A DNA stretch of 64,000 bases, from the NCBI RefSeq assembly GCF_002798405.1, contig NZ_PGGV01000029.1, positions 310,001 through 374,000 of the forward strand. Direction: 5' to 3'. The notes beneath the pieces were generated by a model. The model saw only the letters and a program-made list of their open reading frames with translations. It was not told where the DNA came from and searched no databases. Of the stretch, positions 3,094 to 9,372 are shown piece after piece. The stretch comes from Glycomyces xiaoerkulensis (GTDB lineage: Bacteria > Actinomycetota > Actinomycetes > Mycobacteriales > Micromonosporaceae). The translations under genes and the position numbers were made by a program. Position 1 is the first letter of the stretch; every line of letters begins with the position of its first letter.

Positions 3094-3306
3094 TCCCTTC
3101 CCGACGTCGAAGCGACCATACCGCGGCGCCCGCCCACCGCTACGGTCACGCTACCGGCTTTCCTGGAGAGCGCTCCGGCATTCGGGTCGGAAACGGGGAC
3201 CTCGGGGTCGAGGGAGAATGCACCCGCCTGAGCACGTGAACGGTCTCGTCGTTGAACTCGACCGGCTCGGACTCTGGACGACCCGCTGGATGCTTGGGGA
3301 TTGAGG

Positions 3307-3807
3307 TCAGGCGGCGGCGAACTCCCGCAGGGAAGCGATCGAGAACTCGCCGTCGATGGACGATTCTCTGAACGCCTTCCACTCGGCAGGGGTGTAGACG
3401 AGGACGTCGCCGCGGGGTTCGTCCGCTGTGCGGACGGCCACCAGGCCGGTGTCGGCGTAACCGATCTCCAGCGCCGCTCCGCCGCCGGTTCCCACCCACA
3501 GCGCCGCGGAGCCGTCGAACGAGCCCTTCAGCGGGTGGACCAGCGACGGTCCGTCGTGAGCGGGTTCCGTCCGCAGAGCCGGGACGCCTTCCCCCACGAC
3601 TGTCTCCACGAACGCCTCGAAGCTCTGGAGCGAAGCGCTGAGGATCGGGCTCTCTTCTCCGAGCTTGCTGTCGCGAAGCTCGACCAAACCGGCGTGAAGT
3701 CGGACCTCGACACAGTTGCTGCTGCCATTGCCCGAGCTGCGGCTCGGCTTCCGCCAAGCCAAGCTGGTCGTGGGGGTCTCGCTGCCCAGCGGCGAACGAA
3801 TCGTCAT
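3307..3807 (-). CDS. Tandem DUF397-domain protein
   Basis: A 166-residue protein with two DUF397-like units. The first spans about residues 12-60 and contains the family hallmark W-R-K-SxxSxxxxxCVEV followed by RDSK. The second (about 105-155) is diverged, with a VYTPAEWKAF ending typical of DUF397. DUF397 proteins are small actinobacterial partners of XRE/DUF5753 regulators, and this gene overlaps the XRE stop codon by 4 bp (ATGA at 3807-3804). Pairs of this kind have been linked to developmental regulation and toxin-antitoxin-like interaction in Streptomyces. The role here, modulating the neighbouring regulator, is inference. Confidence 0.8.
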   Translation of the reverse strand: MTIRSPLGSETPTTSLAWRKPSRSSGNGSSNCVEVRLHAGLVELRDSKLGEESPILSASLQSFEAFVETVVGEGVPALRTEPAHDGPSLVHPLKGSFDGSAALWVGTGGGAALEIGYADTGLVAVRTADEPRGDVLVYTPAEWKAFRESSIDGEFSIASLREFAAA

Positions 3808-4661
3808 TTCTTCACGTCCTTCAATATCTCGCGGATGCACTCGACCGTCCTGGCCTTGTCAAGGGCTTCCTCGTTCCAGAGCGCATCAAAAGTCGCTGTA
3901 AATGAGTCTACGTCAGGGGCTTCGAGGAACTTTGTTACCGCCGATGAGTCGATGCAGACGACCTCGGGAAGCGGCTCTGGAAGTTGGAAGTGGGTGAACT
4001 CCACCGTGATGCCCGCAGCGATGTGCTTCCAGCACTCCTTCGGAAGGATGCGCAGCTCGACGTGCGGCCACTCGATCATATCCAGGAGGTGACTGAACTG
4101 GTCACGCATGAGCTGATCCTCCTCGAACCGCTGGAAGAGAACCGGCTCGTGGACCAGGAAACGGAGGGTCTTGGGCTCCTTGCCGGTGAACACCTGGTGG
4201 CGCATGAGTCGGGCTTCGACGGTCCGCTGGACCTGAAGATCGTCGCCGCTCTCGGGGCCGTGCGAGATGAGTGCTGTCATGTACTCCCTGGTCTGCGTCA
4301 ATCCGGGGAGGGCCGTCAACGCGAGGACGTTGACAGTATGAGCGTTGTCCTCCAGCCACAGGTAGTCCGTGAAGTTTCGATTGATGTACGGCTCGTAGTT
4401 GTCCCACCAGCCTCGCTGCGTCACGTCCTTGGCGAGCCTGAGCATGTCCGCGCGTTGGGTCATGTCTGATACCCCGTAGAGGTCCAGCAATTTCAGAAGA
4501 TCGTCACCAGGAATCGGGTTTTGACCGGATTCAAACTTGCTTACGACGCTCTTCACCCGCCGGAGGTACTCGCCCACCTCCTGGACGGACAAGCCGCTCT
4601 CATCCCTCAGCTCCTTGACGGTCTTGCCCAACCATCGAGCGCGCCATGTTGGCTCGGCCAC
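3804..4661 (-). CDS. XRE/HTH regulator with DUF5753 (Scr1-like)
   Basis: A 285-residue regulator. Residues about 13-60 form an XRE helix-turn-helix (LRDESGLSVQEVGEYL then VSKFESGQ). Residues 85-275 match the DUF5753 ligand/partner-binding domain (TQTREYM, PKTLRFLVHEPVL, ELRILP). It starts with GTG preceded by AGGAG and is encoded upstream of, and translationally coupled to, the DUF397 gene. It is divergent from the small-gene/hemB-like cluster, and a perfect inverted repeat (4768-4785) sits in the shared intergenic region next to the plus-strand promoter. The obvious inference is that it controls that cluster and possibly itself. Confidence 0.88.
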   Translation of the reverse strand: MAEPTWRARWLGKTVKELRDESGLSVQEVGEYLRRVKSVVSKFESGQNPIPGDDLLKLLDLYGVSDMTQRADMLRLAKDVTQRGWWDNYEPYINRNFTDYLWLEDNAHTVNVLALTALPGLTQTREYMTALISHGPESGDDLQVQRTVEARLMRHQVFTGKEPKTLRFLVHEPVLFQRFEEDQLMRDQFSHLLDMIEWPHVELRILPKECWKHIAAGITVEFTHFQLPEPLPEVVCIDSSAVTKFLEAPDVDSFTATFDALWNEEALDKARTVECIREILKDVKK

Positions 4662-4767
4662 GTTCGCTCCTACCTCTCTGGTCGCACACGAGCCATCCTA
4701 CGGATCGGCTGCGGTCGACGACGGCAGCAACCCCTCGGCTTCAGCCAGAGTATCAATCAGCGGAATA

Positions 4768-4785
4768 GTTTCTCTAGTGAGAAAC
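4768..4785. promoter_or_regulatory. Perfect inverted repeat, candidate XRE operator
   Basis: GTTTCTC-TAGT-GAGAAAC is a perfect 7-bp palindrome with a 4-bp spacer. It abuts the -35 box of the plus-strand promoter and lies about 107 bp upstream of the divergent XRE gene. Position and symmetry suggest the binding site of the XRE/DUF5753 protein. Confidence 0.55.
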
Positions 4786-4814
4786 TTGACTCAATACTGA
4801 AACTAAGACATACT
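4786..4814 (+). promoter_or_regulatory. Promoter driving the small-gene/hemB-like cluster
   Basis: TTGACT (4786-4791) and CATACT (4809-4814) are spaced by exactly 17 bp in an AT-rich patch directly after the inverted repeat. The predicted start of transcription is near 4821, where a GTG codon opens a 94-codon reading frame, compatible with a leaderless transcript. Confidence 0.55.
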
Positions 4815-4820
4815 CCTCCT

Positions 4821-5105
4821 GTGCCGCGGATCATGCAGGGGTTTGCCGACAGGGACCTTCACTGTCCGAATCACGGCGCGTTAGAGGTCCGGGCGCTGCT
4901 CATGGGCGGCAGCCGGAAACTGGGGCTCGGCCATCGCCGCCCGGATCGCCCACTCTCCGGGTTCGAGGGGATCAGCGGAGTGCGGGCGCCCTCACAACTC
5001 AACAGGCCATTGACCAGCCGCCATGAGATAGACGGCGGCCCGCCGGGAGACCTGATGTTTGGCGACATGATCTCGGCGGGCCGCACTACCTCCGGCGCAG
5101 CATGA
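4821..5105 (+). CDS. Possible leaderless small ORF, 94 aa, unknown
   Basis: GTG at 4821 lies 7 bp after the -10 box and opens a 94-codon frame ending at 5105, just before the next gene's ribosome binding site. Third positions are mostly G/C, as in neighbouring genes. The translation (MPRIMQGFADRDLHCPNHG at the start) resembles no family I know. The alternative is that 4821-5120 is an untranslated leader containing the hairpin at 5036-5083. A reverse-strand frame over 4871-5122 is less convincing because it would run against the promoter and has no visible ribosome binding site. Confidence 0.3.
   Translation: MPRIMQGFADRDLHCPNHGALEVRALLMGGSRKLGLGHRRPDRPLSGFEGISGVRAPSQLNRPLTSRHEIDGGPPGDLMFGDMISAGRTTSGAA
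5036..5083 (+). promoter_or_regulatory. Inverted repeat upstream of the small-gene operon
   Basis: CGGCCCGCCG (5036-5045) and CGGCGGGCCG (5074-5083) are perfect 10-bp complements separated by 28 bp, ending 37 bp before the ATG at 5121. No U-tract follows. It may be a leader hairpin or a second protein-binding site. A role is not shown by the sequence. Confidence 0.4.
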
Positions 5106-5120
5106 AAGGACCTGTCTCTC

Positions 5121-5492
5121 ATGCATTACCTGGCTCATCCATTCTATGCGCCCGCAGTAGCGCGGGCCAAGACGATTCTCGCGCTCCACCGGCCCCGGCG
5201 TTCGGGCCTGTTCCGGCTCTGGCGATGCGACTGGTGCAACGAACGCTGCGGCCGCGACGGCTGCTCGGCCCGTCGTGCCGCGCTCGCCGTCTACGACGAA
5301 CACGCCGGTGAAAACGAGCGAACCTGGGACCTTGCCTGCGGCCACCTGTTCACGCCCTCAGAGGCGCTGCACGTCACTCCGACAGAAGTGCTCCCGGCCC
5401 TGCCCTCCGAGGCATTCCAACCCCGATCGGCGGAGCCGGTCGGCCGATGGGGGCCGTCGTACCCGGCGGATGCGGAGGCGGTGATCGCTTGA
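5121..5492 (+). CDS. Small cysteine-rich (zinc-ribbon-like) protein, unknown function
   Basis: A 123-residue protein not recognised as a known family. Residues about 34-50 hold a compact cysteine cluster (CDWCNERCGRDGC), suggesting a metal-binding knuckle. A further cysteine-histidine pair (ACGHLF) lies near residue 75. The ATG has an AAAGGA ribosome binding site. Its stop overlaps the TTG start of the next gene (TTGA), so it is the first well-supported member of a tightly coupled run of four small genes. Small Cys-rich proteins of this sort occur in actinobacterial accessory loci beside XRE/DUF397 pairs; the role here is unknown. Confidence 0.55.
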   Translation: MHYLAHPFYAPAVARAKTILALHRPRRSGLFRLWRCDWCNERCGRDGCSARRAALAVYDEHAGENERTWDLACGHLFTPSEALHVTPTEVLPALPSEAFQPRSAEPVGRWGPSYPADAEAVIA

Positions 5493-5764
5493 GCCGCCGC
5501 ACGATCACCATCGACATGACCGAGGTCGCCGGCACCGGACTGCGAGAGGTCCTGGCGCGGCAGACCGCTCCAAGCGAGCTGTACTGCATCGGCATCACCG
5601 CGCACGGATCGGTCGAACTCGGCCCGGCGTTGATCGGCCTCGACGGCGCGGTCTCAGCCCTCTTCGACGACGGCGAGACCGACCGCTGGCTCGACGACGC
5701 GAGTTTGGCCGACCTGCTTGCCAACCTGAGCGTGTTCGTATGCCCGGCAGGGGAGCGGCCGTGA
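5489..5764 (+). CDS. Small protein of unknown function, 91 aa
   Basis: Not recognised. The TTG at 5489 overlaps the preceding stop by 4 bp and has GGAGG about 12 bp upstream, so I prefer it to in-frame starts further upstream that would lie inside the previous gene. The protein is acidic (DDGETDRWLDD near the middle), with no membrane segment or cysteine cluster. Its own stop overlaps the GTG of the next gene. Coupling on both sides argues that it is translated and belongs to the same unit. Confidence 0.5.
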   Translation: MSRRTITIDMTEVAGTGLREVLARQTAPSELYCIGITAHGSVELGPALIGLDGAVSALFDDGETDRWLDDASLADLLANLSVFVCPAGERP

Positions 5765-6318
5765 GCGCACCGACCAACGATACGTGCCCGACCACGTCGC
5801 TGACAGTCGACACCGGCCCCGAACGGGGACTGCGCCTGGCGCTGACTGCCCACCTCGGTGACGGCGCAGTCAGCCTCCACACAGTCGCCGCCTGCCGACG
5901 AATGGTCGGCATGGTCACCGGCATCGGTGCTACCGCGCACCGCGCGCCGCGCATCACGTTCGAGGACCCCTTCGCGGTCCGCCTCGGCGACTACGGCGAA
6001 GCGCTGACGCGGGCCGCCGAAGCGTTCTACCTCGGTGTGGCCGCCATATCGGTCACACGGCACATGATCGGCGAGTTCGAGCTGCCCGGCGGTAGCCGGT
6101 ACCGCCTCTATGCCGACGACCGGGTCCGTGCGGTGAGCATCTGCCGAATCGCACCGACCATGGAGACGCGAAAACGGTTCCTCGCCTCCGGCCTGCACTA
6201 CCGGCGACCGAGGTTCTTCTTTCCGGCCAACTGGACCCGCGAGGACCGGCACCGTGCCCGGACCGCGGTCCGGGTCTCGCGTCGCGCGGCCCTCACACAG
6301 AGGACGCCCGGATGCTGA
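5761..6318 (+). CDS. Protein of unknown function, 185 aa
   Basis: Not recognised. The GTG at 5761 overlaps the previous stop (GTGA) and has AGGGGAG upstream; an in-frame ATG at 5740 is less likely. The body has alternating hydrophobic strands (LTVDTGPERGLRLALTAHL and FELPGGSRYRLYADDRVRAV), suggesting a compact beta-rich fold. The C-terminal third is strongly basic (many Arg, for example HRARTAVRVSRRAA), compatible with nucleic-acid or acidic-partner binding. There are no signal peptide or membrane helices. The end overlaps the next start by 7 bp. Confidence 0.5.
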   Translation: MSAPTNDTCPTTSLTVDTGPERGLRLALTAHLGDGAVSLHTVAACRRMVGMVTGIGATAHRAPRITFEDPFAVRLGDYGEALTRAAEAFYLGVAAISVTRHMIGEFELPGGSRYRLYADDRVRAVSICRIAPTMETRKRFLASGLHYRRPRFFFPANWTREDRHRARTAVRVSRRAALTQRTPGC

Positions 6319-6605
6319 CCGAGCGGGAATTCCTCGATGACTTCTTCATTAAGCACATCGAGGTCGTCTTCAGCGTCTTCGTTCTGCCGCAGCCGATCCG
6401 TGGGGGCGAGGGTCGGTTTCGAGTCACAGCCTACGAGGGCGCGACTCGAACCGCGTGCCACCGGGTGTGCGATTTCCGCATCGGCGACCCGAAAGCGGAC
6501 TGGGCGGAAGGACTGCCCCGTCAGTGGGACCGGGACCTGATCCTCGAACCGGCCCAACGGATCGCGACCGAGCTGCGGAGCGGGACCCGCATCCCTGACG
6601 CCTGA
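6312..6605 (+). CDS. Small protein of unknown function, 97 aa
   Basis: Not recognised. The ATG at 6312 overlaps the previous reading frame. The sequence begins MLTEREFLDDFFIKHIEVVF and ends with a charged helix (EPAQRIATELRSGTR). It is the last of the four coupled small genes; a 139-bp gap follows before the hemB-like gene. No motif gives a function. Confidence 0.5.
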   Translation: MLTEREFLDDFFIKHIEVVFSVFVLPQPIRGGEGRFRVTAYEGATRTACHRVCDFRIGDPKADWAEGLPRQWDRDLILEPAQRIATELRSGTRIPDA

Positions 6606-6707
6606 GCCGGGCCGCCGCTGTATTGGCCCGCTGGCCTGCTGGAGCCGATCCGGCGGCGGCCGCTTCTGCAACTTGTCGGTTCTCCGATACCGATACCCAA
6701 GAAGACC

Positions 6708-6728
6708 TGTTGTGATCGATTGATAACA
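6708..6728. promoter_or_regulatory. Imperfect palindrome upstream of the hemB-like gene
   Basis: TGTTGTG-ATCGAT-TGATAACA is a dyad with one base of asymmetry, 17 bp upstream of the hemB-like ATG in the 139-bp gap 6606-6744. It could be an operator for a regulator that separates the small genes from the tetrapyrrole-like genes. I see no convincing -35/-10 pair here, so read-through from the 4786 promoter is also possible. Confidence 0.3.
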
Positions 6729-6744
6729 CCGAGGAGGGCATCGT

Positions 6745-7728
6745 ATGTCCGATAGATCGATGCAGACCATTCCCAACCGACGTTCCCCTGAAGGGGTCAA
6801 CCCTGGTCGAGCGCGCCGGGCCGTCCGCCATCTCTACGACCATGACCATCTCGAACCTGGCCGGATGTCCATGCCGCTGCTCGTCCGCTCGAACGGCGAG
6901 GTCTCCGGTGAGCTGCCCGGTGAGATCGACCTCGGCGGACTCGCCGGAGAAGCGAGGCGCCTGGCCCGCCTCGGCCTCGGAGGGGTGAAGGTGTTCGTCA
7001 CCGGACACGACCGCGACGCCATCGCCACCGGCGCCACAGCGGCGGACAACCGCATGGCGAGGGCCATCGGCGAAATCAAGGCGGCCGCACCCGACCTGGC
7101 CGTCACCACCGAGGTCTGCGGGTGCTCGTGGACGACCAGCCGCGAATGCGTCCTGCGCAAGGACGGGGGCCTGATCGACCTGGAGGCGACCTATGCCCTC
7201 ATGGGTGAGATGGCCCTACTCCACGCCGAAGCGGGCGCCGACGCGGTCTCACCTACCGCCATGCTGGACGGCTCGATCCGGCAAGTGCGGGACGCGCTCG
7301 ATGCCGAAGGGTGGCGTGATGTGTCGGTGTGCCCCAACATCGCGGTCGACGGCGAACTGTACGAGCCGTTCAAGACGATCATGGACACCGACCCCGGCAC
7401 CGGCCGCCGCGCGGGCCTCCAGCTCAGCTCGGGACGATTGGTCTCCGGTGTCCTCCAGTGCGCCGAGGAATGGATCGTCGAAGGCGCGGACAGCCTCACC
7501 CTCCAACCGGTCCTGACCAATATCGATGGGCTGACCGCGTTGGCGGGGTATACCTTCAATCCGATCGTCGCCTACTCGACTTCGGGCGAGTGGGCCGCGC
7601 TCCGGCATCTCCCGTCCTCGGCGGTCCTGGATTATCACCGCATGTTCCTGCGTCTGGGCGCCGACCACGTCTTGACCTATGCGGCCGACGTCCTTGCCGA
7701 CGCCCTCCGTGAAAGGGAAGGCCACTGA
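6745..7728 (+). CDS. Porphobilinogen-synthase (HemB)-like protein lacking both Schiff-base lysines
   Basis: A 327-residue protein that aligns end to end with PBGS (ALA dehydratase), which condenses two 5-aminolevulinates. Conserved: the zinc cysteines C125, C127 and C135 in the exact CxCx7C spacing, the segment SPTAMLDGSIRQVRDALDA (family PSAAMDGxxxxIRxALD), LYEPFK (family FYGPFR) and YSTSGEW (family YQVSGEY). Altered: the Schiff-base lysine of the (Y/F)xxKxAS segment aligns with Ala200, and that of MVKPA aligns with Gln254 (LTLQP). Without these lysines normal PBGS chemistry is not expected, so it may use another substrate, act as a scaffold, or be inactive. The ATG has a strong GAGGAGG. It overlaps the methyltransferase start (TGATG). 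It is unlikely to be the housekeeping hemB. Confidence 0.82.
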   Translation: MSDRSMQTIPNRRSPEGVNPGRARRAVRHLYDHDHLEPGRMSMPLLVRSNGEVSGELPGEIDLGGLAGEARRLARLGLGGVKVFVTGHDRDAIATGATAADNRMARAIGEIKAAAPDLAVTTEVCGCSWTTSRECVLRKDGGLIDLEATYALMGEMALLHAEAGADAVSPTAMLDGSIRQVRDALDAEGWRDVSVCPNIAVDGELYEPFKTIMDTDPGTGRRAGLQLSSGRLVSGVLQCAEEWIVEGADSLTLQPVLTNIDGLTALAGYTFNPIVAYSTSGEWAALRHLPSSAVLDYHRMFLRLGADHVLTYAADVLADALREREGH

Positions 7729-8303
7729 TGCGCGCCGAGCCGTTCACCCAACCGGCCGTTCTGGAGCAGATCGGCTATCTCAGCGAGACTCTTGGGTTCG
7801 CGATGAGCTGCGACCGGCGAGTCGGGTCGCTCCTAGCGGTCCTGGCCGCTTCAAAGCCCGGCGGCAACCTCGTCGAGATCGGCACCGGGTTCGGTGCCGG
7901 AGCCGCATGGCTGCTCTCGGGCATGGACGACGAAGCCCGGCTGACCACGGTCGAGATCGACCGCTCCAACGTTGCTATCGCCCGGAGTCAGCTCGGCGGA
8001 GACGAACGAGTGCAGATCGTCGAGGCCGACGCACACGCCTGGCTGGAGCGCTACGACGGCATACCGATCGATCTGGCCTTCGTCGACTGGCGGGCGGGCA
8101 AATTCGCCCAACTCGACCGCGTCGTCGAGTTGCTCGCGCCCGGCGGCCTCTACGTGGTAGACGACCTCCTGCCGCAACCGACCTGGCCCGACGGCCACGA
8201 GAGGCGCATCGGCGAGTTCTTCGGCTCCTGGCCCCGCACCGACATGGCGGCCGTCCCGATCGAGTGGGCCTCCGGGCTCCTGATCGCCGCGAAGCTACCG
8301 TAG
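7728..8303 (+). CDS. Class I SAM-dependent methyltransferase (O-methyltransferase type)
   Basis: A 191-residue Rossmann methyltransferase. The SAM-binding motif I is [14 protein letters not shown] (about residues 49-62), followed by acidic motif II VEIDRSN and VEADAHAW. The motif IV region is IDLAFVDWR, and motif V/VI contains [15 protein letters not shown]. The VDDLL segment and small size resemble metal-dependent catechol/caffeoyl-CoA-type O-methyltransferases. Its ATG overlaps the hemB-like stop, and the hemC-like gene starts 4 bp after its end, so the three form a coupled cassette. The likely role is methylating the product or an intermediate of the neighbouring enzymes. The substrate is unknown. 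Confidence 0.8.
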
Positions 8304-8307
8304 GACG

Positions 8308-9255
8308 ATGACGTCGAACGTGCTGCGGATCGTGACCCGCTCGTCCCCGATGGCGCTCGCCCAGGTCGAGCGGGTCCGCACCCTCCTGGCCGATTCCGAT
8401 TCCGATTCCGATTCCGATTCCGGCCTCGGCGTCGAGGTCGTGCCGATCACCACCACGGCGGACAAATGGACCGGGAGCCTGACCGACCTCGGCGGCAAAG
8501 CGCACTTCGTCAAGGAAGTCGACGCGGTCCTGGCGGCCGGGGCCGCCGACGTGGCGGTCCACTGCCTCAAGGACATGCCCGGTGAACGGCCGCTCCCCGA
8601 AGGCATGACCATCGCTGCCTACCTCGAACGAGACGACGTCCGCGACTGCCTCATCCACCCCGAAGGGCTGACGCTCACCGAACTGCCCGCCGGGGCCAGG
8701 ATCGGGACCTCGTCGGTGCGACGCCGAGCCCAACTCGCCGCGATCCGGCCCGACCTCGAATTCAGGCTGTTCCGTGGCAACGCCAACCGCCGCCTGGAGA
8801 AGCTCTACGCCGGGGAGGTCGACGCGGCGATCCTCGCCGTCTCCGGGCTCGAACGCATAGGCCGGACCGATGTCGCCGCAGAGATCTTCGAGCCCGAGGT
8901 GCTCCTCCCGCCGGTCGGCGCCGGCATCCTCGCCCTCCAATGCCGCGAGGACGACCCGGCCACGCTGGAGGCGCTGGCGCCCCTGGGCGACCCGCAGACC
9001 TGGCGCGAGGCGGCCGCCGAACGCATGTTCCTCCACGTCCTCCAAGGCCATTGCAACTCACCGATAGCCGGATACGCCGCGCACGTCGACGGAGAGCTGA
9101 CCCTGCGAGGTGAGGTCTACTCGCTCGACGGCAAGCAGGTCCTCACCGCCTCCGAGACGGCCGGAGCGCTCGACCCGACCGACCTCGGCATCGCCGTAGG
9201 ACTGGCGATCGCCAGGCAGGGCGGGCGAGAGATCATTCAGGAGGCCGAGCAGTAG
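8308..9255 (+). CDS. Hydroxymethylbilane-synthase (HemC)-like protein
   Basis: A 315-residue homologue of porphobilinogen deaminase, which polymerises four porphobilinogens on a dipyrromethane cofactor. Retained: [10 protein letters not shown] near the N-terminus, catalytic Asp in [33 protein letters not shown] and the cofactor-attachment cysteine in [13 protein letters not shown]. Departures from the usual motifs: GGKAHFVKE for GGKGLFx[13 protein letters not shown] for VGQGAxGIECR, and an inserted run of five Asp-Ser pairs after residue 28. The enzyme is therefore probably able to build a cofactor but may act on a modified pyrrole. The RBS is weak, so translation may depend on coupling to the methyltransferase. 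It could instead be the organism's only HemC, although its position beside a lysine-less HemB paralogue argues against that. Confidence 0.82.
8392..8421 (+). repeat. Five tandem GATTCC hexamers inside the hemC-like gene
   Basis: A perfect 6-bp x 5 microsatellite encoding (Asp-Ser)5 in the loop between the first helix and following strand of the HMBS fold. Copy-number change would keep the frame and alter only loop length. Confidence 0.9.
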
Positions 9256-9372
9256 ACAATCGGTCCCCGAGGGGCCGGTAGGACCCGGTCAAGTCCGGGC
9301 ACAGCCCGTCGGCCGGGTCGGTGATGGCCGGACCCGGCCGCCCGGCGCGGGTTGGAGCGCTACGCTACGGCC

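Follow-up and report, generated by a model that had tools for sequence, protein, structure and literature searches.

Two described systems lie closest to the locus considered here. The cyanobacterial tolyporphin cluster is described as a set of seven hem genes (hemA, hemL, hemB, hemC, hemE and two hemF) (PMC10459692), and alaremycin, an analogue of 5-aminolevulinic acid (ALA) made by Streptomyces, is described as an inhibitor of porphobilinogen synthase (PBGS) (PMC12670364). We analyzed a 64,000-nucleotide stretch of the genome of Glycomyces xiaoerkulensis (contig NZ_PGGV01000029.1, positions 310,001 to 374,000; referred to as the window) that contains three adjacent genes for a PBGS-like protein, a methyltransferase dependent on S-adenosylmethionine (SAM), and a protein resembling hydroxymethylbilane synthase (HMBS), the last of which we call hemC2 and all three together the trio. 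Our tentative reading, held at somewhat less than even confidence, is that the trio is a mobile, self-protecting antimetabolite cassette aimed at tetrapyrrole synthesis.

The gene positions and the start/stop overlaps given in an original prediction made from the letters of the window were reproduced when the coordinates of the open reading frames (ORFs) were read again, and a Pfam search agreed with the identities of the three genes (Table 1). The stop codon of the PBGS-like gene and the start codon of the methyltransferase gene share one base (TGATG), and the HMBS-like gene starts 4 bases past the end of the methyltransferase gene. Canonical hemB and hemC genes, for which the prediction had advised a search, are both located on contig C27 of the same genome (C27:86150-87097, 416.9 bits, and C27:83549-84151, 226.5 bits), and the three other carrier genomes checked (G352, G459, and G698) likewise have their own separate hemB and hemC. 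Since these separate genes are present, the PBGS-like and HMBS-like genes are accessory, as had been proposed, and the cassette is real and does not serve housekeeping heme synthesis.

An alignment of three relatives, used in a pattern scan of genome_contigs, gave 12 trio loci: one in Glycomyces amatae, one in Promicromonospora umidemergens, and ten in Streptomyces. In all 12, tblastn placed the PBGS-like, methyltransferase, and HMBS-like genes in the same order and on the same strand, and the methyltransferase start overlaps the PBGS-like stop in each of them as it does in the window. A further genome (L016) has all three genes, with the PBGS-like gene split over two frames. Hence, the arrangement is beyond chance. 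The locus of Streptomyces sp. NBC_00249 (L028) is the same as locus L008 of genome G352, and because the contig is the same, we take G352 to belong to the genus Streptomyces. Apart from the trio, there are loci that we call type II, on plasmid phiM2 of Streptomonospora litoralis and in G698, in which the PBGS-like gene occurs with a single HMBS gene or with two, and the trio methyltransferase was not found. Beside the type II cluster of G698, which has two HMBS genes, genes resembling those for mobilization and relaxase functions were recognized by eye (L017:1360-3751).

The PBGS-like gene is rare. At an E value of 1e-45, it was found in 2/396 genomes of a phylum draw (the window genome included), in 1/249 genomes of an order draw (the window genome itself), and in at least 3/392 genomes of a genus draw around G352 (two with the type I arrangement), the last count being a lower bound that misses a frameshifted copy in genome G450. 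A profile search at an E value of 1e-75 found it in two of the 296 genomes of a class draw, again with the window genome included. A first genome scan gave no match, and in the open-licence papers searched, we found none on the trio or on a PBGS without its lysines, an absence that carries little weight given this selection of papers.

The PBGS-like protein is predicted to have the TIM-barrel fold of PBGS (pLDDT of the model, 86.6). All 50 PDB matches listed by Foldseek are PBGS chains, with a best TM-score of about 0.8. With residue numbers counted on the aligned chain, the zinc-type motif C125-x-C127-x7-C135 is conserved in all 15 PBGS-like relatives, which makes a metal site of the three-cysteine type probable. 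Q226 and S280 are kept in 15/15 and R222 in 14/15; their counterparts in Escherichia coli, Q220, S273, and R216, presumably bind the substrate. In PBGS, two active-site lysines are described as holding the two ALA molecules as Schiff bases (PMC7242693). Neither is present in any of the 15 PBGS-like sequences: the equivalent of K247 (Q254 in the window) is Gln in 13 sequences and Glu in the other 2, and the stretch around K195 is devoid of Lys throughout. On the other hand, K82, in the strand of residues 80 to 85, is invariant in 15/15 and is Met in the genome's own HemB and in E. coli PBGS. The protein reaches 154.1 bits against the NCBIfam porphobilinogen synthase model, below its cut-off of 297 bits. 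The absence of both Schiff-base lysines speaks for the idea, already part of the original prediction, that the cassette has been re-purposed. At one locus (L025:8971-9001), the PBGS-like gene meets a stop within a few codons of its likely start and is perhaps another decaying copy.

For the methyltransferase (METHYLTRANSFERASE), the predicted structure has the COMT fold, with 5x7f and TomG (5n5d) as the best matches (TM-score of about 0.8). An E-x-G-T-G motif and the residues Asp120, Asp145, and Asp146, which we take to be metal ligands, are invariant in 13/13 sequences. By its fold, its SAM site, and these acidic, predicted metal ligands, the enzyme is most probably of the COMT type.

The HMBS-like protein has kept the active site of its family and altered it at defined positions. 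All 11 active-site residues tested, the dipyrromethane Cys (equivalent to Cys242; C249 in the window) included, are present in 73/73 sequences (14 from trios and 59 others); the catalytic Asp and the pyrrole-binding Arg residues are retained in all 73, and the protein passes the NCBIfam hemC cut-off (303.5 versus 164 bits). The same 73 sequences have four fixed changes (E. coli numbering), S81C, Q198A, E239Q, and G241H, which occur in 0/5 canonical rows. In human HMBS, Ser96 is described as a chain elongation residue, Gln217 as positioning Gly218 on porphobilinogen (PBG), and residues 257 to 263 as the cofactor-binding loop (PMC10577081); with an offset taken from PMC8561815, these probably correspond to E. 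coli residues 81 and 198 and the loop with residues 239 and 241. In the HMBS tree, the trio proteins fall outside a clade of four actinobacterial canonical HemC rows (97/94) and not within the housekeeping clade, the placement named beforehand as damaging to the original prediction; E. coli HemC stands on the trio side, via a long branch. A housekeeping duplicate is ruled out by the HMBS and PBGS-like trees. The window copy carries a (GATTCC)n hexamer repeat (positions 8392-8425) that gives a 10-residue insertion missing from the other 13 trio HMBS proteins. Linear plasmids of Streptomyces carry another type of solitary HMBS (L011:9001-9924 and L012:9001-9927), which has about 46% identity to that of the window.

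Trio-type HMBS genes are far commoner than the genes they travel with. In the genus draw around G352, they were found in 250/392 Streptomyces-group genomes (E value, 1e-100), compared to 3/392 for an unbroken PBGS-like gene. Trio and other HMBS rows interleave in the trees, and the approximately unbiased (AU) test rejected a tree uniting the 11 trio HMBS rows of the Streptomyces group in one clade (p = 0.00174), with the bootstraps unsettled. Another 59 HMBS loci were inspected, of which 19 were already available and 40 were chosen by hand, and thus nonrandomly, from the upper listed matches. Searched with a nucleotide model built on the 3' end of the methyltransferase gene, 4/19 and 9/40 of them (13/59) showed a remnant directly upstream of HMBS, and the reversed control gave 0/40. 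One of these loci (L092, from G450) has a whole methyltransferase gene and a PBGS-like gene in two frames and is therefore a trio with a frameshifted PBGS-like gene; in L074, the methyltransferase is broken into three fragments that differ in frame, C-terminal stubs are left in L072 and L084, and the others have short 3' pieces only. The methyltransferase sequence in these 13 loci argues that the solitary hemC2 copies descend from the trio; in the other 46 loci, where the model detected no remnant, trio descent rests on the tree. HMBS itself stays open: no internal stop was found in the 40, and the frame is open in the other 19. The ratio of nonsynonymous to synonymous substitutions (dN/dS, Nei-Gojobori) indicates purifying selection in both settings, at 0.155 over 36 pairs of trio copies and 0.160 over 136 pairs of solitary ones. 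That hemC2 often stands alone after the first two genes have decayed suggests a spare, possibly poison-proof heme enzyme.

The HMBS-like gene also appears to have a promoter of its own. A TANNNT motif ends 6 or 7 nucleotides before the HMBS ATG in 14/14 trio loci and in 59/59 others (19/19 and 40/40), which is the spacing of a leaderless promoter in actinobacteria. The background is 23/319 called starts with the motif within 5 to 8 nucleotides, counted on the crude start sites of a gene caller. Together with the survival of HMBS beyond its partners, this predicted motif points to a self-standing role of HMBS. The gene pair in front of it is preceded by a different kind of element. A perfect dyad, CCGAC-N5-GTCGG, lies 14 to 15 bases before the PBGS-like start in 8/11 Streptomyces-group trio loci, two of the loci being near-identical; the same pattern has 17 matches in the 201,083 bases of those loci, these 8 included. 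The dyad is imperfect in L026 and L027, and L028 has none. The interrupted dyad of the window (Table 1) is shared with the Glycomyces amatae trio (L018), an unrelated locus, and may be operator-like.

In the window, the trio sits on an insertion whose conserved flanks are 67, 146, 238, and 1288 bases apart in four same-genus genomes (five were searched, four of which have the downstream permease). Besides the trio, the insertion contains a DUF397 gene, a regulator gene with helix-turn-helix (HTH) and DUF5753 domains, and four small genes. In both the HMBS and the PBGS-like trees (95/81 and 93/97), the window groups with Promicromonospora and not with Glycomyces amatae, a grouping that transfer of the cassette between genera would produce. 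The trio is a mobile cassette carried by some soil actinobacteria.

Table 1. Features of the trio locus (positions in the window)
Feature	Position	Strand	Remarks
Insertion, ~6.2 kb	3158..9357		Flanks conserved; site empty or otherwise occupied in four genomes of the genus
DUF397 protein, regulator partner	3307..3840	-	On insertion; second copy in C26
HTH (XRE) regulator with DUF5753	3804..4661	-	On insertion, divergent from cassette; second copy in C26
Four-small-gene module	5121..6605	+	Shares insertion, outside trio
Small ORFs, four	5121-5492, 5447-5764, 5740-6318, 6312-6605	+	Mutually overlapping
Interrupted dyad, TGTGATCGA...CAC	6711..6729		Before PBGS-like gene; read by eye, no statistic
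PBGS-like, 327 aa	6745..7728	+	Pfam ALAD, 156.5 bits
SAM methyltransferase, class I, COMT fold, 191 aa	7728..8303	+	Methyltransf_24, 46.1 bits
TANNNT (TACCGT), -10-like	8296..8301	+	Ends 6 nt before HMBS-like ATG, overlaps methyltransferase stop
HMBS-like (hemC2), 315 aa	8308..9255	+	Porphobil_deam, 219.7 bits

The four small genes form a module separate from the trio. The Pfam search gave no family for any of them; they are nevertheless real genes, since ordered homologues with 48 to 66% identity occur elsewhere in the genome. This second copy, on C26 (L047:2813-6051), consists of the small genes (65, 58, 66, and 48% identity) together with the regulator (38%) and the DUF397 gene (40%), and it is followed by a gene for an ATP-grasp peptide maturase-like protein and one for a methyltr_grsp-like methyltransferase. 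These two resemble the pair of ribosomally synthesized and posttranslationally modified peptide (RiPP) systems and score less than the NCBIfam models require (334.9 against 350 and 207.5 against 380 bits). The original prediction had assigned regulation, precursor supply, or carrier functions to the small genes. That part did not hold: they occur at 0/19 trio or related loci (tblastn; E value, 0.01), and the module recurs on C26 beside ATP-grasp RiPP-type genes, so that they were dropped as members of the pathway. A plasmid search at an E value of 0.01 with three of the four (all except 5447-5764) found no match. Downstream of the ATP-grasp RiPP-type genes on C26 lie 74 bases from the 5' end of a trio HMBS gene (L049:4728-4801; 70/74 identical), which stop where the hexamer repeat starts in the window copy, and a large recombinase-like gene was recognized by eye near the module (L049:8530-10059).

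The neighbours of the trio vary between loci. TfuA and YcaO genes lie upstream of the trio in L028 (L028:6025-8732); they were considered as part of the system and are treated as neighbours, being present only there (L028 = L008) among the 19 loci searched. Directly upstream of the Promicromonospora trio are two P450-like genes (recognized by eye), a LanC-like gene, and a gene of unknown kind (L019:3297-8955), and a sulfotransferase gene is near the trio in L018. A phage origin was rejected, with 10 phage-collection records all below 60% identity and no relative in a scan of viral contigs, as was a role in anti-phage defence, for which PADLOC returned, on six window proteins, only a generic partial mad2 match to the methyltransferase.

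How might these pieces act together? In the antimetabolite model, the PBGS-like protein would use its zinc site and its residues for the substrate carboxylate to make or hold a pyrrole of the porphobilinogen type, the methyltransferase would methylate it, and the methylated product would block HMBS. The HMBS-like copy, with its S81C and Q198A changes at the elongation site, would keep heme synthesis going, and a solitary hemC2 would be an orphan immunity gene left once the producing pair is lost. We arrive at this model because an altered pyrrole enzyme is translationally coupled to a methyltransferase, behind an operator-like dyad, and because HMBS appears to be separately promoted and persists after loss of the pair. 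Two features looked for in antimetabolite clusters with self-resistance by target duplication are present: the cassette holds a duplicate of an essential target, HMBS, of which a housekeeping copy exists elsewhere, and the candidate resistance gene is commoner than the producer pair and kept after its loss. The inhibition of PBGS by alaremycin counts in its favour as well. Several points weigh against it. With its lysines gone, the PBGS-like protein may have no product at all. A solitary hemC2 could persist merely as a useful second HMBS, and S81C and Q198A may reflect a different product as easily as resistance. Furthermore, type II loci would be explained equally well by a pathway role of HMBS, and the YcaO/TfuA, P450-like, and sulfotransferase neighbours fit a biosynthetic cluster just as well.

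The main rivals are, accordingly, a pathway in which HMBS acts as an enzyme and a generally useful isozyme. The pathway is the idea of the original prediction: the PBGS-like enzyme would form a nonstandard pyrrole that the HMBS-like enzyme links into a short or linear oligopyrrole, to be decorated by the methyltransferase as a specialized metabolite. It would explain why the three genes stay together and in order, and why HMBS keeps its cofactor Cys and catalytic residues yet has fixed changes at the elongation site. Tailoring-like neighbours at single loci (YcaO/TfuA in L028, a sulfotransferase in L018, and a LanC-like protein in L019) and the type II loci speak for it as much as for an antimetabolite. 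However, most sampled HMBS loci are without the PBGS-like and methyltransferase genes and would have only ordinary PBG to work on, HMBS has a promoter motif to itself, and the neighbours differ by locus, so that we regard the pathway as unlikely, if worth keeping in view. Still less probable to us is that hemC2 serves on its own as a generally beneficial second HMBS, for instance as an isozyme for stress or development, and that the PBGS-like and methyltransferase genes upstream of it form a pair for regulation or PBG handling that tends to be lost. The purifying selection, open frames, and leaderless-type motif of the solitary copies and the presence of hemC2 in 250/392 genomes agree with it, but it leaves unexplained why these two genes, one of them for an altered PBGS, move with hemC2 between unrelated genera and sit with it on an insertion. 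Detoxification or overflow, in which the PBGS-like protein would bind excess ALA or PBG, the methyltransferase cap it, and the HMBS-like protein drain PBG, is quite improbable. The equivalents of R216, Q220, and S273 are largely kept and an operator-like dyad precedes the pair, as such a role would have it, but the pair is rare and mobile, and no link to a heme-stress regulator was seen.

In its boldest form, the antimetabolite model states that a PBGS-derived enzyme, working with Lys82 as a relocated catalytic lysine or with zinc alone, makes together with the coupled methyltransferase the first genetically encoded inhibitor of HMBS, and that the second hemC seen in roughly two thirds of the sampled Streptomyces-group genomes is an orphan immunity gene against it; this we consider doubtful, if possible. 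If true, the frequent second hemC of Streptomyces would be explained as the relic of a three-gene cassette, and a PBGS-fold enzyme would have changed its mechanism. There would be a natural inhibitor of HMBS, where the inhibitors described in the literature consulted are synthetic PBG analogues only, and resistance that outlives production would be a clean metabolic case of an orphan immunity gene.

With porphobilinogen synthase (HemB, ALAD, PF00490), the PBGS-like protein shares the predicted TIM-barrel fold, the three-cysteine motif, and the S273 and Q220 equivalents, and it differs by lacking both lysines, by the new Lys82, and by a score under the NCBIfam equivalog cut-off. The methyltransferase has the predicted fold and the metal-type Asp trio of COMT-type O-methyltransferases (Methyltransf_24/Methyltransf_3) but is shorter (191 aa) and, in the trio, always upstream of HMBS. 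The 11 active-site residues and the passed NCBIfam cut-off tie hemC2 to hydroxymethylbilane synthase (HemC, PF01379, TIGR00212), whereas its separate clade, four fixed changes, and own leaderless-type promoter motif set it apart from the host HemC. As for whole systems, the tolyporphin cluster is described as likewise having clustered duplicates of hemB and hemC beside housekeeping copies (PMC10459692), but the trio has three genes, neither hemE nor hemF, and a lysine-less PBGS-like protein. Alaremycin resembles the proposed product of the trio in being an actinobacterial antimetabolite against early tetrapyrrole synthesis (PMC12670364) and differs from it as an ALA analogue that hits PBGS.

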